Below, piece by piece: positions 1,100 to 30,495 of a DNA stretch of 45,046 nucleotides. Each line of letters starts with the position of its first letter. Position 1 is the first letter of the stretch. The notes beneath the pieces were generated by a model. It saw only the letters and a list, made by a program, of their open reading frames with translations. It made no database searches and had not been told where the DNA came from. Source of the DNA: a virus; IMG/VR virus record IMGVR_UViG_3300025896_000004, positions 1 to 45,046 of that record, one strand, 5' to 3'. A program made the translations under genes and the position numbers.

Positions 1100-3457
1100 C
1101 TATCGAGTACTGAACCCGTCGCCCTTGTTCTCGTCGATGAACTTCTCGATCGGCTCGCCGGCGACTTCCTTATCGACGGTGAACTCCTCAAAGACAGTTA
1201 TAGGCACTAGCACTGAGCGACAGTTAAAGTGCATCGGCGGTATTGGTTCTGTGCCTATGGCAAAGACTTTACCATGAAGTCCCGCGCAGATGTCACTGGT
1301 TCGATCGTCCAGAATAGCGGAGTACTGGAACGCCTTGACCACGCCACTCACATAGAATTCGTTGATGCGCGCGCGGTTCATCACCTCGGTGAACTTCGTG
1401 CGAGCGTATCTCTCAAGAGATGCATCGGCCTTCTCACGCGTGTCCTGATCGATCATCTCAATGACCGACGAGATCGGCTTGCCATCTTTGATCGCGTTGC
1501 GCACGGCTTGCTTCGCGCCTTCGGTGACGATGTATTCCCAGCGCCCGATGTAGTCGAATGTCTCTGCCTCGAGCATGTTAAGGAACTGTTCCGACGGGAG
1601 CGACGGCTTTGCGAAGTTGCCCTTGATCAATTCGTTGCGCGCGATCAGGCCCGACTCGCTGAAGCCTTCGCGCAAGGACTTCTTGAGAAGGACTTGCATC
1701 TGCTTCAGGCTCTTAAGCTTCACCGACTCCAGGCGATCGGGATTGTTCATCACCTTCTTCTTCTGAAGCTGATCGATGAGATCCTCGAAGATCATGTCGA
1801 TGATCGGATCCGCTTGCGCCTTCAGCTTGTTCTCGGAGTTGTCGAGTTGCGTCTTGATGCGAGCGAAGTCGACCTTCTTGCCGTAGTCTAACGCCGGCGC
1901 ATCGTACGAGAAGGACTTCTTCTCGCCGGCCGCGGGCTTGTCATTCGCCTTTGCAGGCTGAGCGCCTTTGCCCGCCGGCTTCTTGCCACTTCCCTTATCA
2001 GCTCCTTTGTTAGGATCTGACTCAGCTTCCTTGCCAGCTTGATCTGCATTCTCAGCGTTCGGATCCTTGCCGTCTCCATCTTCGTTCACCTCTAACGGGT
2101 TCGGTTGACCGGGCAAGCCCAGCGCCTGCACGGGTTCGTGGAACTCGACGGGGCCTTCGGGGAACTTGATCAGTGCGCGGAAGTGGTTGATCTCTTCCGG
2201 CGTCGGCTTGTACATCTTGCCGCGCATCGCCTCAGCGAACATCTTCGCGTACTTCTCGGCGTCGTCCTCGGAGATCGGGAGCAGCTCGAACTTCGGATAC
2301 GACTCCATCATGCCGTAGTTCCAGGTGCACATCGGTTGCACGATGTGACGGTTCACGATGCGCTCGAGCTTGCGCCGGCGACGCTTGATGTACTGCATGA
2401 ACACGTTGATCTGTTCGCGGCCGAGGGCTTGTGAGCCCCCGGTCTGCGACTCGGATCCAGAGAAGCCGAGCAGATCGGGAAGAATCAGCCCGCGGCCGAT
2501 GAACATGTTGAACAGGTTGAGGCCCTTGATGTACGCCTCGCCGTTCGACTTCGCTTCCAGGAAGTCCACTTCGATCTCTTTGGGGATCACGATCGCGGTC
2601 TTCGCCTGGAACTTCTTGAGGATGTCGAGCAGCTCGCGGCGCTTATCCTTCGGCGTCTTCTGATCGTACTTGCCCACCGGTGTCGGCGAGGCGTTCTTCT
2701 CCAGGAAGATCGAGTAGAAGCGGATCACATGGCGCTTCACAAGCCACGCATCGTATACAGCTTTGAGGTCGCTGCGGCCGTACGGGTTCTGGAAGGCGCG
2801 CGAATTGATCGAGTGAATGAGAGACTTCGGGTTGATGTTGACTGACGACTTCGACCCGCGCTGTTCGTAGCGCTCGATGTTCCCATGCTCGTCGGTGTGT
2901 ATCAGCCAGGATGCAGGATGCCGGGTCTTCAGCTCCTTGAACGTCAGCGTGTTGTCGTCGCGGATCTTGAAGATCTTCTCGGCCAGGGCAAAGCCGTACG
3001 AGTGCTCGGCGTCGATGAACTCCTCGAGCTGCTCATCAAGGGCTACATCCATGTCTTCTTCCAGGCGGTTGAAGATGTCCTTCGCGATCTTCGTGGCGCT
3101 GTCCTTCTCGGCCTCGCCCACGTCATCAGCGCAGTCGGATGCGATCTTCCAGCCGGCGCCCACCACAAGGTCCTTCTTGAGCTGCATGGCGACCGTGATC
3201 TGATCGTCCTTCTTCATCTCTTCGTAGATGCGATAGTCGCCCGTCTTCTGAACAATCTCGTCCGGGTTGTACGGGCGAAGCATCGAGGCGGGAACGTACG
3301 AGCTGACCGCGATCGTCTTCTCTGCAGTGCCGTAGTAGTGCTCGGCGATCAGGTTCTGGCCGGCGGCGGCTTCCATGATGTCGTCTTTGCGTTCGACTGG
3401 TTCAGTGGTGGTCGGTGCTTCTTCCGCCGCAGCTTCTGACTTCTTTGCACGAGCCAC
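1100..3457 (-). CDS. Portal protein fused to Mu-F/SPP1-gp7-like minor head protein
   Basis: This 785-residue protein has two parts. Residues 1 to about 470 are a DUF935 (Mu gp29-like) portal: a dodecameric ring at the capsid vertex that passes DNA and docks terminase and the tail connector. A hydrophilic, low-complexity linker rich in Asp, Lys, Gly and Ala spans about 465-535. The C-terminal part carries the Mu F/SPP1 gp7 signature near 695-760: RTKFTEVMNRARINEF, then a D-R-T-S-D-I-C block and PPMHFNCRSVLVPI. Portal and MuF proteins are usually separate genes, and fusions are known. The gene follows the large terminase directly (nine-base gap). Confidence 0.93.
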   Translation of the reverse strand: MARAKKSEAAAEEAPTTTEPVERKDDIMEAAAGQNLIAEHYYGTAEKTIAVSSYVPASMLRPYNPDEIVQKTGDYRIYEEMKKDDQITVAMQLKKDLVVGAGWKIASDCADDVGEAEKDSATKIAKDIFNRLEEDMDVALDEQLEEFIDAEHSYGFALAEKIFKIRDDNTLTFKELKTRHPASWLIHTDEHGNIERYEQRGSKSSVNINPKSLIHSINSRAFQNPYGRSDLKAVYDAWLVKRHVIRFYSIFLEKNASPTPVGKYDQKTPKDKRRELLDILKKFQAKTAIVIPKEIEVDFLEAKSNGEAYIKGLNLFNMFIGRGLILPDLLGFSGSESQTGGSQALGREQINVFMQYIKRRRRKLERIVNRHIVQPMCTWNYGMMESYPKFELLPISEDDAEKYAKMFAEAMRGKMYKPTPEEINHFRALIKFPEGPVEFHEPVQALGLPGQPNPLEVNEDGDGKDPNAENADQAGKEAESDPNKGADKGSGKKPAGKGAQPAKANDKPAAGEKKSFSYDAPALDYGKKVDFARIKTQLDNSENKLKAQADPIIDMIFEDLIDQLQKKKVMNNPDRLESVKLKSLKQMQVLLKKSLREGFSESGLIARNELIKGNFAKPSLPSEQFLNMLEAETFDYIGRWEYIVTEGAKQAVRNAIKDGKPISSVIEMIDQDTREKADASLERYARTKFTEVMNRARINEFYVSGVVKAFQYSAILDDRTSDICAGLHGKVFAIGTEPIPPMHFNCRSVLVPITVFEEFTVDKEVAGEPIEKFIDENKGDGFSTR

Positions 3458-6630: not shown

Positions 6631-7086
6631 CTAGTCTTCCCACCTATCGTCTTCAATCGCATCGAGCTGGCGGGCGACGAACGCGTTCACGCTGTCGCCT
6701 TCAAAGGCACTGTCTTGCGGCTTCGTGTCGGGCGACTCTTCCTTGATGATCTCGCGGCGGCCGTATCTCTTCGGGAACTTCCGCTCGAGCGTCCATGCCG
6801 ATGCACGCCAGTCGACCTTCGACTTCTCGTAGATATTGTTCAGATGCACGGCCTCGCCCTCGTCGATCGCTATCTCTACTGCGTGCAAGAACTCGCGATA
6901 CGGGCCGCTCTTCTGCTTGTGCCCACGCTCCATCCAGTTGTAGACCGTGCGCTTGTGAATGCCGGCGTACGCGGCCGCTCCCTCAATGTAGCAGCCGATC
7001 CTGAGAGCTTCGCAGATCTTATCCTGTATCTCTTTAGTAATGCGAGACGGAGCGCCCACGCGCCCCCGCTTGAATGCCGCCGACAA
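6631..7086 (-). CDS. terS: Terminase small subunit
   Basis: The preferred start is TTG 7086, with AGGGGGG seven bases upstream, giving 151 residues; an in-frame ATG at 7131 would put the AT-rich promoter-like tract inside the gene. The N-terminal half is a helix-turn-helix (KICEALRIGCYIEGAAAYAGIHKRTVYNWMERG), the DNA-recognition domain of small terminases that binds the packaging site. KRYGRRE follows a conserved Trp-rich helix (ASAWTLERKFP), typical of this family. It begins the packaging and head operon and should hand DNA to the large subunit. Confidence 0.85.
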   Translation of the reverse strand: MSAAFKRGRVGAPSRITKEIQDKICEALRIGCYIEGAAAYAGIHKRTVYNWMERGHKQKSGPYREFLHAVEIAIDEGEAVHLNNIYEKSKVDWRASAWTLERKFPKRYGRREIIKEESPDTKPQDSAFEGDSVNAFVARQLDAIEDDRWED

Positions 7087-7164
7087 CTCGCGACCCCCCT
7101 GTGTTTTACAATTTTGATCAATTTTAACCAATTTTTTACGATCGCGTCGACTTATCGTTCACTG
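7087..7164 (-). promoter_or_regulatory. AT-rich intergenic region, candidate late promoter before terS
   Basis: The 78 bases between parB-like and terS include an almost G/C-free tract (7105-7138), unlike the rest of the genome. On the minus strand TTGGTT and TAAAAC are separated by 17 bases, a weak sigma70-like pair, and a TTGATCAA palindrome lies between them. The ATTGTAAAAC element resembles ATTGTAAAC and ATTATAAAC in the tandem repeat upstream of the gene at 41146. It is inferred to drive the late operon. Confidence 0.5.
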
Positions 7165-7683
7165 CTACGACTTAGAGCGGGCCTTCAACGCATCCTTCGC
7201 ATCGAACTCCGCGCGACAGTGCGGACACTCAATGTATACAGGATCACGTTCCTGCTTCTCGTCGGTGTTCGCGATGCGCGTGTGCTCTGCAACTCTCTCG
7301 ATGCCTTTGATCCCGAGCAGGTTGATGTTCAGCTTCGGCATCTCTTTGATGTCGAGCTTGATCGCGGGGATGTCGAGCTGCGCTTGAAGTGCGATCGCGT
7401 TGTCGGCCTGCACGTCGGCGTACTCCTGCTCTTCGCTGTCGTAGTCTTGCAGGTCGACAGGGAACTCAGTCCAGCCGTTGAGCTTTGCGGCCTGAAGAGT
7501 GCCGTGACCTGCGGTGATGAAGCTGCTCTGATTCGACACACGTATCGCCTTGCGGACACCGGTCTCGCGCATGATCTCGGCCAGGCGCTCGATCTGCTTC
7601 TTCGGATGCTTGTTACGGTTCTTCGGATGCGGCTTGAGCTCGTCGATAGGAACGAGCTTGTCGAACGAGCAGCGGACGTTCAT
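7165..7683 (-). CDS. ParB/sulfiredoxin-fold protein
   Basis: A 172-residue protein with an N-terminal ParB-like nuclease domain: PIDELKPHPKNRNKHPKKQI, then VRKAIRVS, ITAGHGTLQAAKLNG (the G-H-G box) and an acidic ALQAQLDI region. The C-terminus adds one CPHC pair. Phage ParB-like proteins of this length commonly stand next to the small terminase and may act on DNA as nucleases or CTP-dependent clamps. There is no ParA or centromere array, so plasmid partition is unlikely. It overlaps the Fis-like gene start by four bases. Confidence 0.85.
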   Translation of the reverse strand: MNVRCSFDKLVPIDELKPHPKNRNKHPKKQIERLAEIMRETGVRKAIRVSNQSSFITAGHGTLQAAKLNGWTEFPVDLQDYDSEEQEYADVQADNAIALQAQLDIPAIKLDIKEMPKLNINLLGIKGIERVAEHTRIANTDEKQERDPVYIECPHCRAEFDAKDALKARSKS

Positions 7684-10508: not shown

Positions 10509-10742
10509 TTACAAGCGCTTCATGTGAAGATCGAAGCCTTGACGCGCGTGCTTGATCCACATGCGCATCACCTTTGCGGCCGTTCCGGTATAGTAGCCGA
10601 TCCGGTATTCGAGTCGCTTGATGAGATCCGCGTGTTGCGCCATACGTGCACGCCTGCGCGCCTTCGACATCTGATGGCGCCGGCGGGCGCGCGCTCTTCT
10701 TTGCTTCGAGTTCAACGGCTTGTTAACAGTCTGCGGGTCCAA
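10509..10742 (-). CDS. Highly basic small protein
   Basis: Start TTG 10742 is chosen because AAAGGAGA lies just upstream. The 77 residues include a very Arg-rich stretch (KQRRARARRRHQMSKARRRARM, about 13-34), so nucleic-acid binding is likely. It overlaps the end of the sugar dehydrogenase gene by 20 bases. No known family. Confidence 0.62.
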   Translation of the reverse strand: MDPQTVNKPLNSKQRRARARRRHQMSKARRRARMAQHADLIKRLEYRIGYYTGTAAKVMRMWIKHARQGFDLHMKRL

Positions 10743-11622
10743 CGAGATCTCCTTTGTTTAGATCGGTTTTAAGTTCGGTGTTCTGATCGAAGATCTTGTC
10801 GTTCTTCGCGGCGCCGGTCTCGAAGTCCTTCTCGCCTCTATAGAATCGATTGAGGCACAGAACGTCCTTCAAGAAGTAGTGCTCGGCGTACGAGCCCACG
10901 AAGCCGATGAATGCTTCCAGGTCCTTCGGGAAGCACGCGCCGCCGAAGCCCTTCTTGCCATCCGGCCCGGGCACATGCGTGTGCGCGTCGTTGATGTGAC
11001 CCGACATCTGCATGAGCTGTCGGACGTTCGAGTACTTCACACCGTGCTGATCGCACAGCCGGGCGATCCCGTTGAAGTACGTGACCTTCACGGCGCCGAA
11101 CACGTTGTGCGCGTACTTCGTCATCTCGGCCGTCTTGTTCGAGCAGAAGTTGATGTGCTTCTTATCTTCGGTCACTTCACGCATGAAGCGACAGACGCTG
11201 TCCATGAACTGATCCTTGAGCGGGCTGTCCATCTGACACTGCGGGATCCCGATCAGCATCGGTTGCTGAATCAGATCCTCGTCCGCGCGCCGCTCGGTCA
11301 GGAACTCAGGCATAGCGTGAACCTGCAGGCCGTATCTGCGCATGAGATCATCGCATGTGCCAGGAAGGACAGTGCTTCGCAAGAAGACGAGGCCATCTGA
11401 ATCGGTGTTGATCTGTGAGAGCGCCTCAGTGACGATCGACAGATCCTGCTTGAAGCCCTTCGTCGGCACGGGCACGCTGATGAAGTACGCGTCCGCGCTG
11501 TCATCGAACGCATCGTGACCCTGAGGCGGATCGTAGATCGTCACCTCGTGCTTCGTGTTCTGAATGAGCCAGCGCCTGAGCGCGCCGCCCACCACTCCGT
11601 TGCCTACAATACTGATTCGCAT
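10723..11622 (-). CDS. Short UDP-sugar dehydrogenase (WbpA/TviB-like, lacks C-terminal domain)
   Basis: A 299-residue protein of the UDP-glucose/GDP-mannose dehydrogenase family. Residues 5-14 (IVGNGVVGGA) form the NAD-binding loop; EMTKYAHNVFGAVKV (166-180) carries the conserved Lys/Asn; GFGGACFPKD contains the catalytic Cys230. These enzymes oxidise a UDP-hexose twice, to the uronic acid. Full-length members have about 420 residues with a C-terminal UDP-binding domain, which is absent here; the gene ends soon after residue 265 with a charged tail. It lies directly downstream of a 4-epimerase gene with overlap, recalling the WbpA/WbpP and TviB/TviC pairs of host polysaccharide loci. Confidence 0.88.
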   Translation of the reverse strand: MRISIVGNGVVGGALRRWLIQNTKHEVTIYDPPQGHDAFDDSADAYFISVPVPTKGFKQDLSIVTEALSQINTDSDGLVFLRSTVLPGTCDDLMRRYGLQVHAMPEFLTERRADEDLIQQPMLIGIPQCQMDSPLKDQFMDSVCRFMREVTEDKKHINFCSNKTAEMTKYAHNVFGAVKVTYFNGIARLCDQHGVKYSNVRQLMQMSGHINDAHTHVPGPDGKKGFGGACFPKDLEAFIGFVGSYAEHYFLKDVLCLNRFYRGEKDFETGAAKNDKIFDQNTELKTDLNKGDLVGPADC

Positions 11623-12560
11623 GTTAGTTCTACTCCTTGTCTCCAGTTGTGCGTCGGCTCGTAGCCGAGCAGTTGCTTTGCTTTAGTTATGTCCGCACCG
11701 CTCACTCGGATGTCGCCTTCGCGCATGCTCCGATGCTCAAGCGGTGCAACCTTGTATCCCATCTTGACCGCGTGAACGCAGATCTCGTTCCACATCCCAC
11801 CGAGCGAGACCTGCTCGCCGGCGCCGATGTTGAACACCTCGTGCTGCGTATCGAGCTTCGCATCCGCGGCCAGAAGATTCGCATAGGTCACGTTGTCGAC
11901 GTACGTGAAGTCGCGCGTGATCTCGACCCATCCGTTCATCACCGCCTGGCGGCCGGTCTTGATGCAGTCGAGCCACTCAGGAACCACGGCCGCGTACGGG
12001 CCGACCCTTTGCCGCGGGCCGAACACGTTGAAGTAGCGAAGCCCGACTAAGGTTGTCTCGCCGCCGGCGGCCGCGCAGATCTCAGCATCTAGCTCGTTCA
12101 GCCGCTTCGAGACGGCGTACGGGCTGAGCGGACGACCCATGCGATCCTCGGCCTTGAGTGTGTCTTCGATGTTGCCGTACACGCTGCTCGACGAGGCGTA
12201 GACCACGCGCGGAACCTTGTGATCGAGCGCGCTCAAGAACAGGTGTCGTGTTGCGATCACGTTGTTCGTGATGTACAGGTGCGGCTCTTTGCGCGATCGC
12301 GGAACGGATCCCAGGGCTGCGTTGTGGAAGATCACATCGAAGCGGCCGCCGGCGATCAGTTCTTCACTCGCATCAATGTCGGCGAGATCGACTTGCGAGA
12401 AGACGAACTTGCCAGGCAAGGAAGCCAGGATCGGCTCGACGTTGTACGGCGTGCCAGTGATGAAGCTGTCGATGCCCACCACGTCGTGACCTATCTTCAC
12501 AAGACGCTCCGCAAGATGAGATCCGATGAAGCCGGCGGCACCGGTAACAAGACACCTCAC
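11604..12560 (-). CDS. NAD-dependent nucleotide-sugar 4-epimerase (WbpP/TviC-like)
   Basis: A 318-residue extended short-chain dehydrogenase. TGAAGFIGSH (residues 6-15) binds NAD, YASSSSVYG gives the catalytic Ser and SPYAVSK the Tyr/Lys pair. The LGSVPRS segment after HNAA is typical of UDP-N-acetylhexosamine C4-epimerases. Likely reaction: interconversion of UDP-GlcNAc and UDP-GalNAc, or their uronic acids. With the downstream dehydrogenase it could supply a modified sugar for phage or host surface glycans. Exact substrate is inferred. Confidence 0.9.
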   Translation of the reverse strand: MRCLVTGAAGFIGSHLAERLVKIGHDVVGIDSFITGTPYNVEPILASLPGKFVFSQVDLADIDASEELIAGGRFDVIFHNAALGSVPRSRKEPHLYITNNVIATRHLFLSALDHKVPRVVYASSSSVYGNIEDTLKAEDRMGRPLSPYAVSKRLNELDAEICAAAGGETTLVGLRYFNVFGPRQRVGPYAAVVPEWLDCIKTGRQAVMNGWVEITRDFTYVDNVTYANLLAADAKLDTQHEVFNIGAGEQVSLGGMWNEICVHAVKMGYKVAPLEHRSMREGDIRVSGADITKAKQLLGYEPTHNWRQGVELTCESVL

Positions 12561-22769: not shown

Positions 22770-23789
22770 CTAAGAGAGGAAGAGCTTCTTCTCTGCGGCG
22801 CGCCGACGGATGAGACCCTTCAGCGGCCGGCCGCCGGCATTGATCCAGCGGTCGAATTCGTTCGCAACCACCGCCCGCTTCTCGCCGGCGTTGAGCTTCC
22901 GAAGCAGAGTCGACTTCGACAGAGCGCCGGATCCCAGGTTGTAGCAGAAGGACACGAGAGCGCAGAACTCATTCGTCGAGAGGGATACTCTCACGAGCGA
23001 CTTCACGTCACGGGCGAACTTGTTAACCTCGTGCAGCAGCCAGGCTTCGGCTTCGCTTTGAGTGCACCTGTCTCCCATCTTGACCTTGCGGCCGTCGGGA
23101 TAGCGGATCGTGCCCCAGCCGATCGTCGGAATGCCGACCGGATCTAGATACGCCTTCAAGTACAATCCCTCGAACTCCTTGATGACGGCCAGCGCGGGGC
23201 CGAGGTCTTCGCTCACGGGCTTCTTCTCTTCTGTGGCGGGCGCGTCATCCTTCATGCTGTCATCCCAGGCGTACAGCAAGCAGCCGCCGATCTTGTGACC
23301 GATCTCGCCGGCGGTCTTCTCGCTCACGCCGAAGCATCCCAGCGTATCGCCGATCGGCTGACCTTCGACATCATTCACGTACTTCGTCGAGTGGAACAGG
23401 ATCTCGCGCGCGCGGATCTTGTCGTTCAATCCCTTCTCTAGACCTTCCAGCAGACGCACGTACTTCCACTTCGGGTTCTTGAACTCAGAGCCCACGACGA
23501 CCGCGCCCAGCGACGACTGATAGGATCCCGACACGTTCGAGAAGCCGTCGGGCATACCGTCCTTGTTCTTGTCGGAGTTCTTGCCGTGAGCCACCTTGTA
23601 CGAGTTCGACTCGAGCGTTGTCATGCTGATCATGTGCAGACGCTTCTGCGACTCATTCAGAGAGAAGTCGACGATCACGATGTAGTTCTTGTTCTTGACG
23701 GCCGTATGGTCGGCCCACTTGAGCGCGCGCGCGAGCGCCTTAGGGTTGATTCGGGGGTTGCGCTTGAGAATCTCCTGCAGTCTGTCCAT
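22770..23789 (-). CDS. Endolysin: L,D-transpeptidase-like domain fused to GH24 lysozyme
   Basis: A 339-residue protein with two enzymatic domains. Residues 35-177 match the YkuD_2-type murein L,D-transpeptidase family: YIVIVDFSLNESQKRL, HGKNS, GFSNVSGSYQSSLG, LLEGLEKGLND, then His133 (ILFHST) and Cys152 (LGCFGVS) as catalytic pair. Residues 198-339 are a GH24 lysozyme with Glu207, Asp216 and Thr222 in EFEGLYLKAYLDPVGIPTIG spacing, as in T4 lysozyme. The second half cuts glycan strands; the first would act on peptide cross-links or stem peptides. No signal peptide is present, so export needs a holin. GAGGAG lies before ATG 23789. Confidence 0.9.
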   Translation of the reverse strand: MDRLQEILKRNPRINPKALARALKWADHTAVKNKNYIVIVDFSLNESQKRLHMISMTTLESNSYKVAHGKNSDKNKDGMPDGFSNVSGSYQSSLGAVVVGSEFKNPKWKYVRLLEGLEKGLNDKIRAREILFHSTKYVNDVEGQPIGDTLGCFGVSEKTAGEIGHKIGGCLLYAWDDSMKDDAPATEEKKPVSEDLGPALAVIKEFEGLYLKAYLDPVGIPTIGWGTIRYPDGRKVKMGDRCTQSEAEAWLLHEVNKFARDVKSLVRVSLSTNEFCALVSFCYNLGSGALSKSTLLRKLNAGEKRAVVANEFDRWINAGGRPLKGLIRRRAAEKKLFLS

Positions 23790-24780: not shown

Positions 24781-25044
24781 TTACTTGCCCGCCAAAGCCT
24801 TCGCGACGTCGGCGACAAGCAGACCGTACAGGTTGTACGACTCCTTCGCCTTCGCTTCGTCGTCCAGCTTCTCGAAGCCGTCGACCGCGGTGATCAATCC
24901 AGGAAGAGAGCCGGCGGCGATCTCGGTGATCGACTTCTTCGCCTTGATGTCTTCAAGCAACTTCACGAGGAAGTCCTTCACATCCTTCATCTCTTTAGGA
25001 ACCTGAACGGTTACGTCGACGAGCTGTACTTGCTGTTCATCCAT
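24781..25044 (-). CDS. Hypothetical protein
   Basis: An 87-residue protein from ATG 25044, with AAGGGGG seven bases upstream. It begins MDEQQVQLVDVTVQVPKEMK and continues as helices (DFLVKLLEDIKAKKSITEIA). Similar small proteins accompany phage lysis genes. No function is assigned. Confidence 0.68.
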   Translation of the reverse strand: MDEQQVQLVDVTVQVPKEMKDVKDFLVKLLEDIKAKKSITEIAAGSLPGLITAVDGFEKLDDEAKAKESYNLYGLLVADVAKALAGK

Positions 25045-26356
25045 GCGTGCCCCCTTCATGTGGCGTTGGTATCATTGAGTTGTCTTTGTAGATCCAGTTT
25101 ACAGCGTCGTTCCGGCTCTGCAAGTCTATATCCCGCAAGTAGCGGACGCAGTCGCGACTCTCGACGAACATCTTGAGCTTGTCGGCCGGGTCTGTAGCTC
25201 TCAAGGCTATCTCGCGGAAGCAGTGAGAGAGAGCCATCAAGAACGAGGCGTTGTTCGGCCGCAGCTCGAGCGCCTTCTGTATATACTTAGCAGCATCCTG
25301 ATACTTGTCGTATCGCATGCACACGTCGCCGGCGAGACGTAGCGGCTCGAGAGAGGTCGGGCAAGCCTTCAGCATGGGAGCGACGAAGTTCTCCATCACC
25401 CACTCGAACGGCGGCTGCGTGTCCCGCGCGGCGTGTGCCTTCTGGCGCGACTGCTCGTACGCGTTCACCCAGGCGGCCGGGAAGTTCGAGAACTCGCGCA
25501 GAGCTTCCTCGAACTTCGTCTCGCCATAGAGGATCGCGGCCGTCTTGATCCGCTTCATCACGGCCTTCAACTTCTCAGGGTCGATCTTCGGGATCTTCGC
25601 ATCGGCCATCAGCGCGTCGTTGCGCTTGCACAAGTACGTGTTGTCGTACAAGTAGAGATCCTTCTTCACGATCTCAAGGCCCACCTTCGCAAGCAGATAC
25701 TCGAAGTGCGCCGGATGCCATACGTTGATGTGGTGTGGATCGTAGTAGAACTCAAGGTCGAAGCCGTCGGTTCCCGGGTTCACCATCTTCTCGTGCCAGA
25801 TCGGAACAGAGATGTACATGAAGCCGTCTTCGTGAAGGCACTCGACGTATTCACGCAAGCGAAGATCCACGTCGAGCTGATGCTCGGCCACCTTGAACGA
25901 CGAGATCAGGTGATACTTCTTCGATCGATCGAAGTCGAGATCGAGTCGGATCCCGTACTCGTGCCAGGCGTTGCGCCGATACGCGAGCGCCCACTCGGTG
26001 CCGCTGATGTCGGCCTCAGGGAAGTGCGACTTGATCCAGTTTAGGAACTGACCGTACGCCGCTCCGATGTCGCACACGACCGGGTTCTTGAGGCCACGAT
26101 CCATCCAGCTCTTCAGCGTGTCGGTGAGGAACGCCGAGTGGATGTGCAGCTTCTTCTGTCCGGTGAATGCGTTCTGAACGCTCGGGCACTTGCGATAGTC
26201 TTCCTTGTAGTGTGCCTTGATCTCCGCTTCGGTCTTGTACATGCCCGGATACGAGATGAACCCGCAGCCCCCGCACATCATCATGCCCTTCTTCGTCATC
26301 CTGAACTGATCGACGTTCTCCCACTTGTCGGTCGAATCACACACTATGCAACGCAT
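25037..26356 (-). CDS. Zinc-ribbon SAM methyltransferase with C-terminal TPR region
   Basis: A 439-residue protein in three parts. Residues 1-35 are a zinc ribbon (Cys3, Cys6, Cys28, Cys31). Residues 75-240 are a class I methyltransferase with VVCDIGAAYGQFL as the SAM-binding loop and YISVPIWHE after the acidic strand, of the Methyltransf_23 kind found in sugar O- or C-methyltransferases. The C-terminal 150 residues are helical repeats with one clear TPR (AAKYIQKALELRPNNASFLM). The zinc ribbon plus methyltransferase plan occurs in C-methyltransferases of deoxysugars. It overlaps the aldolase gene, supporting a joint pathway. Confidence 0.82.
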   Translation of the reverse strand: MRCIVCDSTDKWENVDQFRMTKKGMMMCGGCGFISYPGMYKTEAEIKAHYKEDYRKCPSVQNAFTGQKKLHIHSAFLTDTLKSWMDRGLKNPVVCDIGAAYGQFLNWIKSHFPEADISGTEWALAYRRNAWHEYGIRLDLDFDRSKKYHLISSFKVAEHQLDVDLRLREYVECLHEDGFMYISVPIWHEKMVNPGTDGFDLEFYYDPHHINVWHPAHFEYLLAKVGLEIVKKDLYLYDNTYLCKRNDALMADAKIPKIDPEKLKAVMKRIKTAAILYGETKFEEALREFSNFPAAWVNAYEQSRQKAHAARDTQPPFEWVMENFVAPMLKACPTSLEPLRLAGDVCMRYDKYQDAAKYIQKALELRPNNASFLMALSHCFREIALRATDPADKLKMFVESRDCVRYLRDIDLQSRNDAVNWIYKDNSMIPTPHEGGTHG

Positions 26357-27158
26357 TCTGAACCCCCTTAACCTTTAACATTAATTGATTGAACGCCTGG
26401 AAGCTGATCGCCTGATCCGCGTCGGACAGGCTGTTAACCGGATCGGGATGCACTTCAACGAGGCATCCGTTCGCGCCGGCGGCGACGCCGGCCAAAGTCA
26501 TCGGCTCAACGAGATCGCGCCGGCCGGTGCCGTGAGATCCATCGACGAGAATCGGGATCCGCGTGATCGCCTGAACCGCAGGGATCATCGAGATCGAGAG
26601 ATCCCAGCGTACATGTGTCGCGTTGCCGGCGGATCCGCGCTCGATCAAGTACAGCTCTTCGACGCCGCCGGCGAGGAGATGCTCGGCTGCGCCCAGCAGC
26701 TCGTCGATCGTGGTGCCCGGGTTGCGCTTCAAGAAGACCGGCTTCTTGTAGCAGCCCAGAACCCGAAGCAGCGTGTAGTTCTGCATCTGACGGCAACCGA
26801 CCTGGAAGCAGTCAGCGTACGCGCTCACGAGATCCATCGCGTACTCGTTGTAGTCCAGAACCTCGATGATGTTCTGAAGCCCGTTGTCGAAGGCCGCTTG
26901 ATGATACGCGCGCAGCAGCTCCTTCTCGACAAGACCGAAGTTCTTGCCAGGATAGGTGCCGGCGCGGAAGACACCGCCGCGCAAGTGCGTTGCGCCCGCG
27001 GCCGCGACGTGAATAGCGATCCGTTTGATCTGCTCTTCGTTCTCGACCGAGCAGGGTCCGGCGATCACGGTGAATGTTCGCCGGCGCGGGGAATAGTTCT
27101 CGACGCGATCGTAGCGCGGAGTCGGACCCCACGAGCGACGCTTTGCGAACTCGTTCAT
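26337..27158 (-). CDS. DAHP/KDO8P/NulO-synthase-like PEP aldolase
   Basis: A 273-residue protein of the type I-beta DAHP synthase fold. Conserved: AGPCSVE (Cys36), QVGCRQMQN, KPVFLKRN, LIERG, DGSHGTGRRDLV (His209), CLVEVHPDP (Glu235) and SLSDADQ (Asp246); the four metal ligands are present. The loop that reads K-P-R-T in DAHP synthases is here R-A-G-T (65-68), followed by YPGKNFG, so the acceptor sugar may not be erythrose 4-phosphate. The family condenses PEP with an aldose to give a 3-deoxy-2-keto acid. The neighbouring methyltransferase and cytidylyltransferase-GT genes suggest a glycan role, not aromatic amino-acid supply. Confidence 0.85.
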   Translation of the reverse strand: MNEFAKRRSWGPTPRYDRVENYSPRRRTFTVIAGPCSVENEEQIKRIAIHVAAAGATHLRGGVFRAGTYPGKNFGLVEKELLRAYHQAAFDNGLQNIIEVLDYNEYAMDLVSAYADCFQVGCRQMQNYTLLRVLGCYKKPVFLKRNPGTTIDELLGAAEHLLAGGVEELYLIERGSAGNATHVRWDLSISMIPAVQAITRIPILVDGSHGTGRRDLVEPMTLAGVAAGANGCLVEVHPDPVNSLSDADQAISFQAFNQLMLKVKGVQNALHSV

Positions 27159-27160
27159 GT

Positions 27161-27364
27161 TTATTTACTCCTGTAAGATTTAACGTATGCGAATGCGAGA
27201 CGCCAGTAGATGACGTCGGTGATCGTGAACACAAGGATGAGCGGCGACAACCGGATGATCTGATCCCAGTTGCCGGCCGCCGCCCAGGTGACGGTCGACT
27301 CCCACACGCAGTACGTGAGGAAGTTGTAACCGATGAATAGCGCCGCGAAGATCAGCTCGAACAT
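27161..27364 (-). CDS. Small two-span membrane protein
   Basis: A 67-residue protein with two hydrophobic segments (LIFAALFIGYNFLTYCVW and LSPLILVFTITDVIYWRLAF) and a basic end. It lies between the aldolase and a hypothetical gene. Two-span topology fits a holin, though a holin-like gene already lies beside the endolysin. Function unknown. Confidence 0.65.
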   Translation of the reverse strand: MFELIFAALFIGYNFLTYCVWESTVTWAAAGNWDQIIRLSPLILVFTITDVIYWRLAFAYVKSYRSK

Positions 27365-27741
27365 CAGTAGCTTCCCTTCTTGCGCAAGTACGCCTCGAAC
27401 TCGGCATCGCGCTGGCGCTTTGCTTCCAGACTGTCCGCGGTGCCGAGTGCGTTGACTCGGTCGTTCAGCATAGGGTTGCGAGCCTTGAGAATGCGACGAA
27501 GGGTCTTGTCGATCGAGCCGATCCAGCGACAGTACGTCTCTGCGATCTGCTCGGTCACGAGCCCCTTCTTCTGGATCGTGTGCATGCCGATCTGAATGCC
27601 CTTGCGGACGTTGATCAGTTCATCCATCTTCTGATCATTAAGACAGCGAGTCAGCCAGGCGTTCCACTTCTTCGAGTTCTCGAAGCCTTTGATCTGGCCG
27701 GCGAACAGCTTCAACACGTCGATCTCAAGGTTCGCCTTCAC
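27364..27741 (-). CDS. Hypothetical helical protein
   Basis: A 125-residue protein, MKANLEIDVLKLFAGQIKG onward, helical and basic. It overlaps the next upstream gene by four bases. No recognised family. Confidence 0.65.
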   Translation of the reverse strand: MKANLEIDVLKLFAGQIKGFENSKKWNAWLTRCLNDQKMDELINVRKGIQIGMHTIQKKGLVTEQIAETYCRWIGSIDKTLRRILKARNPMLNDRVNALGTADSLEAKRQRDAEFEAYLRKKGSY

Positions 27742-27983
27742 TTCTTCTTGCCCTTCTTCTGGCGCTTGCCGTTCGCGTACATCGCCATCAGCATCGGATG
27801 CGCGATGAAGTTCGGGCCGTGCGGAAGCTTCTCGCCGCCCTCAAGCCAGGCTTGTGCACCTTCGGAGAAGAGCTTCTTGCTGAGCAGCTTCCAGATCCGG
27901 CGCGCGCGGGCCGCGGTGATCTCTTTGCCGCCCACATCTTCACTCGTGATCCATGTCACGAATTCGTTCATGTTCTTGATCAT
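27738..27983 (-). CDS. Hypothetical basic protein
   Basis: An 81-residue protein with a Lys-rich end (NGKRQKKGKKK). AGGGGG lies seven bases before ATG 27983. No recognised family. Confidence 0.63.
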   Translation of the reverse strand: MIKNMNEFVTWITSEDVGGKEITAARARRIWKLLSKKLFSEGAQAWLEGGEKLPHGPNFIAHPMLMAMYANGKRQKKGKKK

Positions 27984-29296
27984 GGTGTTCCCCCTTGATC
28001 GATAGAGTGTTTAATTCGCTCGCGTTCTGCGAGATTCGTCTTCGACATCGAGCCATCATGCTGGCGATACATGAAGATCGGGCGGCTTAAGTAGCCGATC
28101 TTCAGCGACTTCTGCGCGCGCTTGAATAGATCGTAACCTTCGTAGCCGCGAAGTCCATCGGTGAACTTGATGTGATTCAACGCGCGTGTGCGGAAGAGCG
28201 CGCCGCCCACATGGTGCGAATCTTTGCCGTGCTGAACGAAGTCCATCTTCCCGAAGTAGTTGTTCGGATATATGACGTCGCAGCCTTGAACGGCGATCGC
28301 CTTCAGGAGATCGCTCAACGCCTGCGTGGTGGTGAAGTAGTCGTCGGCATCGAGCCGGACGATGAACTTCCCCCGGGCGTTCTCAAGCGCCACGTTCGAC
28401 GACGAGGCCAGGCCCACGTTCTTCGAGTTGCGGATATAGGTCACGTTCGGATAGAGCGCCGCGAACTTCGCCATCAAGAGCGCCGTGCGATCGGTCGAGC
28501 AGTCGTCCACAAGGACGTACTCGTGATCGCGGAAGCCGCTTTGCGCGCTGACGGATCCCATACACTTCTCGATCCACTTCTCCGCGTTGTACGCACAAGT
28601 GTAGATCGTGGTCATCGGCATGCGGTTGATGCGGGTCAGCCAGGGCTGATCGACGAGCAGGCGAAGGACGTCATCCAGCGTGCAGTCGTTGCCCAGTATC
28701 CCGAAGATCCGCTTCATCAGCTCGATGTCCTCGGGGAAGTCGATCAGCAGGCGGACGTCTTCAAAGTCTGCGTGCACCGCCGGCCGCGCATCGAGCTTGC
28801 GCTCGGTCACGTTGCGGATCGCATACGAGACGTGCTCGACGTTGCGATACTTCTTCGCCGCTTCTTCCAGAGCCCAGAGCGCGATGATCTCAAAGCCGGA
28901 TCCAGGCGTGAGTGCCGAGCCGTACACATAGTGCAACTGGTTGCGCCAGTACTCGTCGAGGAAGCGGAAGATCGCGTCGGTATCAACGAAGATCTTGTCG
29001 TGCGTGATCCGGATGATCGTGTCGACGTCGTGAGCCTTTGCCGCCCAGAACATCCGCCGAAGCGGATCCTCGTCGTCGCCGGCGTACACGTTGAACGAGC
29101 CAGAGAACTCGCTGAAGATCTCCATGAACTGCGACGACTCTTCTTGTGGAACTGCGTAGATGATCTGCAGGCCAGTCTTGAGCAGGCGATCGTGCAGATG
29201 CTGCAGGATCGGCTTGCCATTGATCTCGGTCACACACTTGTTCGGAACGCGCCGGCTCTTCAGCCTGGCGCATACGATGATCGCGGCTCGCATCAT
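27980..29296 (-). CDS. SpsF-like cytidylyltransferase fused to GT2 glycosyltransferase
   Basis: A 438-residue bifunctional protein. Residues 1 to about 215 are a nucleotidyltransferase of the SpsF/KdsB/NeuA group: IIVCARLKSRRVPNKCVTEI, NGKPILQHLHDRL and the sugar-side IDFPEDIELMK. Residues from about 228 are a family 2 glycosyltransferase: TTIYTCAYNAEKWIEK, YVLVDDCSTDRT and the metal motif RLDADDYF. One polypeptide could thus activate a sugar (acid) with CTP and transfer a sugar to an acceptor. It overlaps both neighbours by four bases, in one transcription unit with the PEP aldolase. Target and sugar are unknown. Confidence 0.88.
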   Translation of the reverse strand: MMRAAIIVCARLKSRRVPNKCVTEINGKPILQHLHDRLLKTGLQIIYAVPQEESSQFMEIFSEFSGSFNVYAGDDEDPLRRMFWAAKAHDVDTIIRITHDKIFVDTDAIFRFLDEYWRNQLHYVYGSALTPGSGFEIIALWALEEAAKKYRNVEHVSYAIRNVTERKLDARPAVHADFEDVRLLIDFPEDIELMKRIFGILGNDCTLDDVLRLLVDQPWLTRINRMPMTTIYTCAYNAEKWIEKCMGSVSAQSGFRDHEYVLVDDCSTDRTALLMAKFAALYPNVTYIRNSKNVGLASSSNVALENARGKFIVRLDADDYFTTTQALSDLLKAIAVQGCDVIYPNNYFGKMDFVQHGKDSHHVGGALFRTRALNHIKFTDGLRGYEGYDLFKRAQKSLKIGYLSRPIFMYRQHDGSMSKTNLAERERIKHSIDQGGTP

Positions 29297-29529
29297 ACGG
29301 CTTGTTCGGTGCCTTCGTCTGCGGCCGACTTCAGCACGGTCTCATCCAAAGCATCGAGCGAGAAGGCGAGCTTCTTTGCGATACGGATGGCTGTGTTCAG
29401 GTGAGGCAACTGCGCCCCGCTCGCGTAGCGGTTAACCGCGATGCGCGAGATCTGGCACTCCCGAGCGAGTGCACTTTGCGACATGCCCTGATCCTTCAGA
29501 GCTTGTGTCATGGCTTCTGCGAATGTCAT
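29293..29529 (-). CDS. XRE-family HTH protein
   Basis: A 78-residue protein with an XRE HTH: MTQALKDQGMSQSALAREC, SRIAVNRYASGAQLPHL. It starts at ATG 29529 behind TGGGGG and overlaps the GT gene start as ATGA. It may regulate the sugar/lysis operon. It is the second XRE gene of the genome and differs from the one at 20691. Confidence 0.85.
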   Translation of the reverse strand: MTFAEAMTQALKDQGMSQSALARECQISRIAVNRYASGAQLPHLNTAIRIAKKLAFSLDALDETVLKSAADEGTEQAV

Positions 29530-30495
29530 CTATGACCCCCATGGTTGTTTATAGCCTTTGTATGATTCAAAGGAACTGCAAGTACGGCACGGGTTCTCCT
29601 CGAAGGCTTGCCCGTTCTTGAGATCCGCACGCAGCGATCGCGCGAATTCTCCGTTGAAGATGTCGTAGAGCTTCTCGGTTCTGATGTCGCCGAGTTCGAG
29701 CTGCTCCTTGATGTCCGGGCAACACGGGAACGCGCGCCCTTCGTGGTTGAAGATCAATCGTACGTGCGCCTGAATGCACGACTGTCGGTTGTCGACGTCG
29801 CGCCGGCGGGCTTCCATCTGGCCGACCTTCTCGCTCTCTACGCGGCCGGCGACCATGTCCCTGATAGATGCCTTCGCTTCCGGCCAGCGCTTCTTGATCT
29901 CGCCGGCGATGTCCTCGTCAGCGTTGAGGCGCGTGCGCACCGCTTGAATCACGAGCTGTGTCTCCGACTTGATGCGCGCGGGATGGTTATAGAACAGATC
30001 GACGTTCTCGGTCGTGAGATCGTGATCGCCGCCGGTTCGCTGCTTCTCAAAAACGAACTTCCGGAAGCTGTCATACGAGACTTTAACCTTCGTCAGAGAG
30101 GCGAGACCGTGGAACACGTCTTCACGCTTCTGCGGAATGATCTTGAAGTTCGAGTTCGCGATGCGATCGATGAACGTGGATCCACGCGCGAGTGATCGCG
30201 CATGCTCGGTGATCAGTCTGTAGTTCGGGTTGAGCGTGCCCTCGCCCTTCCAGTTGAACTTGAGAGAGTGGACGCCCAGGAGCGCCGCCTGCTCGATGAT
30301 CGAGAACGCGATCTCTCTCGACATGAAGCCCTGTTTGAACGGGAGCTTCTTCTTATCTGAATGATAGCAGTACGAGCATCCCATATTGCAAGCGCTTGAC
30401 AGCTCAAGTGACACATCAACAGGAACACGAAGAGGCAAAATGCGACCATAGTTGTACTTCACCCTGTACTTGAAGAGAGACATAAATTGTAGCAT
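29530..30495 (-). CDS. Radical SAM/SPASM-like protein
   Basis: A 321-residue radical SAM protein with the cluster motif CNMGCSYC (Cys36, Cys40, Cys43) after SLELSSA. Later Cys residues (QSCIQAHVRLIF, FPCCPD, NPCRTCSSFE) bind an auxiliary cluster as in SPASM or twitch domains. The FNHEGRAFPCC sequence is typical of the SPASM group found in polysaccharide and peptide-modifying loci. Substrate unknown; in an operon with sugar enzymes it may modify a sugar or glycan. Start ATG 30495 is uncertain; ATG 30483 is an alternative. Confidence 0.85.
   Translation of the reverse strand: MLQFMSLFKYRVKYNYGRILPLRVPVDVSLELSSACNMGCSYCYHSDKKKLPFKQGFMSREIAFSIIEQAALLGVHSLKFNWKGEGTLNPNYRLITEHARSLARGSTFIDRIANSNFKIIPQKREDVFHGLASLTKVKVSYDSFRKFVFEKQRTGGDHDLTTENVDLFYNHPARIKSETQLVIQAVRTRLNADEDIAGEIKKRWPEAKASIRDMVAGRVESEKVGQMEARRRDVDNRQSCIQAHVRLIFNHEGRAFPCCPDIKEQLELGDIRTEKLYDIFNGEFARSLRADLKNGQAFEENPCRTCSSFESYKGYKQPWGS

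Follow-up and report, generated by a model that had tools for sequence, protein, structure and literature searches.

A DAHP-synthase-family aldolase with an altered acceptor loop in a candidate glycan cassette of uncultured phages

The 45,046 bases of DNA analyzed here, referred to below as the window, make up a virus record from IMG/VR. It encodes a PEP aldolase of the DAHP synthase family on the reverse strand (26337..27158) that lies in a conserved cassette of genes, has an acceptor loop changed in the same way throughout its phage clade, and in closely related phages is exchanged for a NeuB-like enzyme. We propose that this protein is likely a metal-dependent PEP aldolase of a phage glycan cassette, making an ulosonic acid that would be CMP-activated and transferred, rather than DAHP for aromatic compounds. 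The loss of the residue that grips erythrose 4-phosphate (E4P), the setting among sugar genes, and the NeuB-like alternative together point to a product that is probably an unusual acidic sugar decorating a surface or a protein.

The window record has matches to portal, terminase, major head, tape measure, RecT-like, and helicase proteins. Portal and head-morphogenesis profile matches fall within one 785-aa ORF (1100-3457, reverse strand), and another single ORF (22770-23789, reverse strand) is a predicted endolysin with both an L,D-transpeptidase-type domain (YkuD_2) and a phage lysozyme domain. The aldolase gene begins with ATG and encodes 273 amino acids that match PF00793 (E=2.6e-43), with no regulatory domain. 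The AF2 model (pLDDT 85.8, pTM 0.87) is a complete eight-strand (beta/alpha)8 barrel whose least certain part is the loop at residues 65-74, with pLDDT below 50. Foldseek ranked DAHP synthases first, the nearest being the Aeropyrum enzyme 1vs1, and KDO8P synthases next; the best solved relatives by fold match, 1vs1 and 1zco, are DAHP synthases with 42-43% identity to the window protein. Nonetheless, the protein scored below the NCBIfam cut-offs for DAHP synthases (239.1 versus 267.75 for TIGR01361; 266.5 versus 335 for PRK08673), and far below that for KDO8P_synth (53.8 versus 314 bits). Pfam NeuB (PF03102) did not match the aldolase at E 0.01, nor anything else in the window record, and this profile weakly cross-matches some other members of the same phage clade. 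An earlier note on this DNA had described a PEP aldolase in a phage as unusual; such genes are indeed rare, but the remark was overstated, as PHROGs already contains a DAHP aldolase family, phrog_5045. In what follows, "window-type" denotes the PF00793 protein of the window with its R-A-G-T loop, together with its phage clade.

Active-site residues were compared among 24 phage proteins including that of the window, 26 DAHP synthases (14 from Elusimicrobiota, 11 plasmid-borne, and one in a record labelled as phage), and 13 KDO8P synthases (12 of Elusimicrobiota plus one encoded by a huge phage), the reference enzymes being classed by sequence and not by assay. Residue roles were taken from PMC6362186, in which the numbering is nearly the same as that of the window protein, Lys65 of DAHP synthases binds PEP, and R67 binds E4P. 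The four metal ligands that the earlier note had recognized (Cys36, His209, Glu235, and Asp246) were confirmed in the ORF; across the clade the first three are present in 24/24 proteins and Asp246 in 23/23, one contig stopping before that residue. Arg60, Arg123, Lys144, and Arg174, which contact PEP, are likewise kept in 24/24. The loop reads G-G-V-F-R-A-G-T, bearing out the earlier reading of R-A-G-T where K-P-R-T would be expected, and within the clade it is RAGT in 22 of 24 members and SAGT in the other two. The loop was invariant, far beyond chance, across a 19-sequence alignment reaching down to 44% identity to the window protein; this alignment omitted L008, whose coordinates and scores are the same as those of L007, the partial L010, and L011, which equals the window. 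Position 67 is Gly in every one of the 24 window-type proteins, versus Arg in all 26 DAHP synthases and all 13 KDO8P synthases. Position 65 is Arg (22 proteins) or Ser (2) in the clade and Lys in each of the 26 DAHP synthases.

Because nearly all of the PEP and metal residues are intact while Arg67 has become Gly, the main change appears to be on the acceptor side. The suggestion that the substrate may differ from E4P is thereby supported, and the acceptor of the window aldolase is probably another compound. This loop Arg binds phosphate in both the DAHP and the KDO8P synthase families, and on the strength of that role the acceptor probably carries no phosphate at the point where those enzymes hold one. 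Since the Lys normally found at position 65 is a PEP ligand in DAHP synthases, the substitution there could also alter catalysis itself. The DPSH motif does read DGSH in the window protein, as had been stated, but it does not bear the weight placed on it. Position 207 varies both within the clade (Gly 3, Pro 1, Ala 20) and among the 26 canonical DAHP synthases (Pro 23, Val 2, Ala 1); the change is therefore uninformative, and we discarded it as evidence for an altered substrate.

Two scans of IMG/VR identified 19 contigs with a relative of the window aldolase. Two short patterns of the window-type clade, which more distant members could escape, were run against 84,980 genomes of bacteria and archaea and returned 66 pattern matches and one relative, L021. 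A terminase-like ORF adjoins the cassette on the L021 contig, which is therefore probably of phage origin. When 149 genomes from the phylum of L021 were searched with a profile, the L021 contig scored 414 bits and nothing else exceeded 255. Matches from the phage and plasmid collections did not exceed 46% identity to the window aldolase, and those that were read carry canonical loops. Phage records labelled Listeria, Enterococcus, and Staphylococcus gave matches at 37-44% identity that look like host DNA inside phage assemblies; the loop reads KPRT in L138, the only one inspected. On a phylogenetic tree, the window-type proteins formed a single clade with support of 100/100 and a stem of 1.04 changes per site, positioned near the I-beta DAHP synthases with no exact sister picked out, and not grouping with KDO8P synthases. 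The idea of an altered acceptor thus withstood phylogeny as well: the window protein lies outside any sampled AroF clade with the same loop, and its one relative among the genomes scanned is on a phage-type contig. We also noted a KDO8P-synthase-like gene with a K-A-N-R-S loop at 4001-4762 of L137 (LR756500.1, a 462-kb uncultured phage).

Examination of the window revealed that the aldolase gene belongs to a set of tightly packed genes on one strand, following the tail and glycine-rich protein genes. The conserved order is radical SAM/SPASM protein, cytidylyltransferase-GT2 fusion, small conserved protein, PEP aldolase, and methyltransferase-TPR protein, and all coordinates given here are on the reverse strand. 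The first gene (29530..30495) encodes a radical SAM protein with a SPASM domain (PF13186, 2.2e-09; PF04055 below cut-off), with a PDB match to BtrN over the SPASM part only. It is followed by a gene for a small Cro/C1-type HTH protein (29293..29529; PF01381, 1.1e-09) that had no homologue in the other cassette loci compared. The fusion (27980..29296) joins a cytidylyltransferase at approximately residues 1-225 (PF02348, 1.4e-14), nearest in the PDB to the cytidylyltransferase 6oew and several KdsB structures, to a GT2 glycosyltransferase at approximately residues 226-438 (PF00535, 3.1e-29), nearest to the glycosyltransferase 6p61 and matching phrog_841, a family of GtrB-like O-antigen conversion proteins. 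Next come an 81-aa protein (27738..27983) found by locus comparison to be specific to the window among the loci compared, the small conserved protein (27364..27741), which has homologues at the equivalent place in most loci and no Pfam match, and a 67-aa hydrophobic protein (27161..27364), also specific to the window among those loci and with no Pfam match. On the other side of the aldolase, and overlapping its end by 20 bases, starts the gene for a SAM methyltransferase (25037..26356) with a Cys-rich N-terminus, a PF13489 match (4.5e-09), and C-terminal TPR-like repeats (TPR_2, 3.9e-05, below the Pfam cut-off).

At the domain level, the PEP aldolase, CMP-sugar synthetase, and transferase of a CMP-ulosonate-type gene set are all present. 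The acceptor argument of the earlier note is supported, but that note overlooked both the sugar cassette and the replacement by NeuB-like genes, and these provide the stronger argument. The sole bacterial match to the cytidylyltransferase domain of the fusion at E<1e-35 in 149 genomes lies near genes for PseB and PseC, both of which score above their NCBIfam cut-offs. In a genome of the L021 phylum (L141, 6627-8690, reverse strand), a cytidylyltransferase domain is fused to a glutamate-1-semialdehyde-aminomutase-like domain close to PseB and PseC genes.

No enzyme of the NeuC, LegG, or PseG types, which make acceptors, was found among the window proteins scanned. Elsewhere in the window, the only candidates for acceptor synthesis (which would call for a dehydratase, an aminotransferase, and an NDP-sugar hydrolase) among the ORFs scanned were the genes of a short UDP-glucose/GDP-mannose dehydrogenase-like protein (10723..11622, reverse strand; PF00984, 1.3e-17, with a partial PF03721 match lacking much of the N-terminal domain) and an NAD-dependent sugar epimerase/dehydratase (11604..12560, reverse strand; PF01370, 7.2e-50), which overlap. 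PF00984 occurred in 16 of 32 cassette-bearing records, with both aldolase types, and epimerase relatives in 12/21 and 4/14 records. We therefore rejected a tie between this pair and one aldolase type, and the two enzymes may or may not supply a nucleotide sugar or acceptor to the cassette.

A search of IMG/VR with the fusion protein yielded 35 cassette contigs, the aldolase being visible in 33. The slot held a window-type aldolase in 19 contigs, a NeuB-like protein in 10, both in two, and a third PF00793 type in two; the remaining two contigs stop short of a full slot, in one case after the first 24 residues of a window-type protein. The aldolase of L052 was read from the opposite end of the same contig (L006), and the set includes two pairs resembling near-copies (L059/L060 and L069/L070). 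Conservation and collinearity of the cassette extended to contigs whose fusion proteins are as little as 29-33% identical. Among loci with enough flank, the exception in order was L020, in which the aldolase gene is directly followed by individual genes for the cytidylyltransferase and the GT2. The NeuB-like slot proteins are about 225 amino acids long, without the C-terminal domain of longer NeuB proteins, and Pfam NeuB scored above cut-off in 7/7 tested. The model of one is a compact eight-strand barrel (pLDDT 94.7) with a fold nearest to NeuB and PseI. No window-type aldolase was found elsewhere in the 10 records with only the NeuB-like gene, which may be fragments. Two contigs carry both, so the two types are not strictly alternatives; in L013, however, an intact window-type aldolase sits beside a NeuB-like protein (6827-7513) that has lost both His metal ligands.

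The third PF00793 type is very divergent and was found in the slot of L080 (10721-11455), L083 (1512-2249), and L171 and L172 (5282-5989). It too has Gly in place of Arg67 (4/4), and independent loss of this Arg in the two types was not established, as a constraint placing them in one clade was not rejected (p-AU 0.31). The last two loci came from a scan with the methyltransferase, which returned 27 contigs, four of them new: L171, L172, L161, which is cut at its start, and L170. In L170, the 1.36 kb visible upstream of the methyltransferase has a TnpB-like ORF and no aldolase, which counts against the reading proposed below. As read from the sequence, L170 56-4074 places the methyltransferase between the TnpB-like ORF and a separate NeuA-like cytidylyltransferase with a radical-SAM-like ORF; a terminase-like ORF lies downstream.

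The closest comparison is between the window and L054, its sister on the fusion-protein tree (71% identity, support 100/100), which has a NeuB-like gene in the slot. The DNA of the two is collinear on both flanks at 67-75% identity, and the replaced block spans approximately positions 26345-27503 of the window. Over this tree, the window-type label required 13 changes, versus a mean of 11.7 for shuffled labels, and was thus scattered much as shuffled labels are; well-supported branches force at least six changes. A second fusion-protein tree of 30 rows, nine of NeuB type, was built without L080, L083, L057, L021, and L070 and with the two both-aldolase contigs counted as window type; here, well-supported branches force at least three. 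Making the NeuB type a single clade on the 30-row tree cost 252.65 log-likelihood units (p-AU 1.1e-196), and a single origin of the NeuB-like slot on the fusion-protein tree was rejected. We also looked for columns of the fusion, radical SAM, and methyltransferase proteins that track the aldolase type, leaving out third-type, unresolved, and near-copy rows and again counting the both-aldolase contigs as window type. None rose above the permutation maximum, in a test with little power given nine NeuB-type rows. Since no partner column tracks the aldolase type, the other cassette enzymes apparently tolerate whichever product they are given.

The above considerations suggest that an aldolase of the DAHP synthase family was recruited into a phage glycan cassette. 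There, it would join PEP to a sugar acceptor by aldol condensation, yielding a 3-deoxy-2-keto acid (3-deoxy-2-ulosonic acid) and doing the job of the NeuB-like enzyme in sister phages. The cytidylyltransferase domain would then convert the ulosonic acid to a CMP sugar, which the fused GT2 domain would transfer, while the radical SAM protein and the methyltransferase may tailor the sugar or its target. The order of the cassette genes, the residue pattern, and the aldolase exchange are directly observed; we infer the catalysis, the order of steps, the CMP activation, and the non-phosphorylated acceptor from sequence and gene context. To our knowledge, CMP-ulosonates are not typical donors for GT2 enzymes, and the GT2 domain may therefore use another donor. 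Our best guess for the target, made by analogy with FlmG and flagellin glycosylation, is a protein of the virion to which the TPR-like region would bind. A broader formulation, for and against which we are evenly divided, is that these proteins form an apparently phage-confined class of the DAHP synthase fold that acts on an unphosphorylated acceptor and takes the place of sialic acid synthase in making a phage-specific CMP-ulosonic acid, with three PEP aldolase classes interchangeable in one slot. The literature searched, which included few subscription papers and no preprints, contained no published account of the cassette or of the aldolase exchange.

Three other views of the enzyme itself appear improbable. 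It would be quite surprising if this were an auxiliary metabolic gene for a standard DAHP synthase, raising the supply of aromatic amino acids in infection. The nearest PDB relatives, the annotation of phrog_5045, and the retention of PEP and metal residues other than position 65 would fit such a role, but the E4P-binding Arg is gone from the entire clade, the NCBIfam scores fall short, the cassette has no other shikimate gene, and NeuB-like genes replace the aldolase at the same place. Nor is it likely that arabinose 5-phosphate is the acceptor and KDO (KDO8P) or a similar sugar the product, destined for an LPS-type glycan after activation by the KdsB-like domain. The first domain of the fusion does match KdsB structures, and a KDO8P synthase with the usual loop is known in another, huge phage (L137). 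Nevertheless, the K-A-N-R-S loop and its Arg are absent from the window aldolase, the KDO8P_synth score is very low, the tree gives no grouping with KDO8P synthases, and there is no KDO8P-phosphatase-like gene among the cassette genes of the window. The NeuB-like protein of L013, with its lost metal ligands, indicates that decay does occur in the aldolase slot, and position 65 is changed in the window protein itself; even so, a catalytically dead aldolase kept for some other role is very hard to reconcile with metal and other PEP ligands that are invariant over 24 divergent members.

Two further possibilities concern what the cassette is for, and we lean against each without dismissing it. The window-type and NeuB-like enzymes might make different acidic sugars, so that the swap acts as a serotype-like switch of decoration with tolerant later enzymes. 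Repeated exchange among close relatives, the different pockets of the two enzyme classes, and the presence of a third aldolase class are all in keeping with such a switch, as against the lack of compensating change in the partners (by the low-power test above). NeuB enzymes use unphosphorylated sugars and the window type has lost the phosphate-binding Arg, so that a common unphosphorylated acceptor for both types would be simpler. It is also possible, if somewhat doubtful, that the cassette modifies the host envelope, in superinfection exclusion or receptor masking, and not a virion protein. Many phages carry GtrB-like O-antigen conversion genes, and the GT2 domain matches the corresponding family; however, the conserved cassette is without a flippase or a polytopic Gtr-type membrane protein, the methyltransferase partner has TPR-like repeats, and the genes come after those for tail and glycine-rich proteins.

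The kinship of DAHP synthase, KDO8P synthase, and NeuB, each with its own acceptor, is textbook knowledge, and here members of these PEP aldolase classes were exchanged several times at what would be one pathway step in closely related phages. The window and L054 offer a matched pair for asking how acceptor choice evolves. The cassette suggests a group of uncultured phages that make their own acidic sugar for decoration, which, if so, would bear on receptor recognition, defence evasion, and the annotation of auxiliary metabolic genes; automatic pipelines would label the window aldolase as aromatic amino acid synthesis.

Several known systems resemble the proposed pathway in part. With the type I-beta DAHP synthases (AroF/AroA; Pyrococcus 1zco, Aeropyrum 1vs1, Thermotoga 1rzm), the window aldolase has in common the fold, the metal site, R60, R123, K144, R174, and approximately 40% identity, and it differs from them in having RAGT for KPRT and Gly for the E4P Arg, in its scores under the NCBIfam cut-offs, and in its place in a phage cassette. 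In the pairing of KDO8P synthase (KdsA) with KdsB, too, a PEP aldolase goes together with a CMP-transferase from the KdsB/SpsF superfamily, yet the window protein departs from KdsA in loop, score, and tree position and lacks the phosphate Arg. The sialic-type acid synthases NeuB, PseI, and SpsE are represented by the NeuB-like proteins in the same slot of sister phages and would perform the same step, although the window protein is of another sequence family, PF00793. Phage genes acting on a nonulosonic acid have a precedent in the phage-encoded EpaA/EpaB, which convert pseudaminic acid in the Acinetobacter capsule; these modify a sugar made by the host, and the available part of that account describes no PEP aldolase cassette (PMC12053666). 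In Caulobacter, flagellin glycosylation involves NeuB together with FlmG, whose TPR part binds flagellins, and the likeness to the cassette lies in a PEP-dependent sugar acid synthase feeding cytoplasmic protein glycosylation with a TPR region; according to that work (PMC7591256), the TPR region of FlmG is fused to a GT-B transferase, whereas the TPR-like repeats of the window are fused to a methyltransferase.
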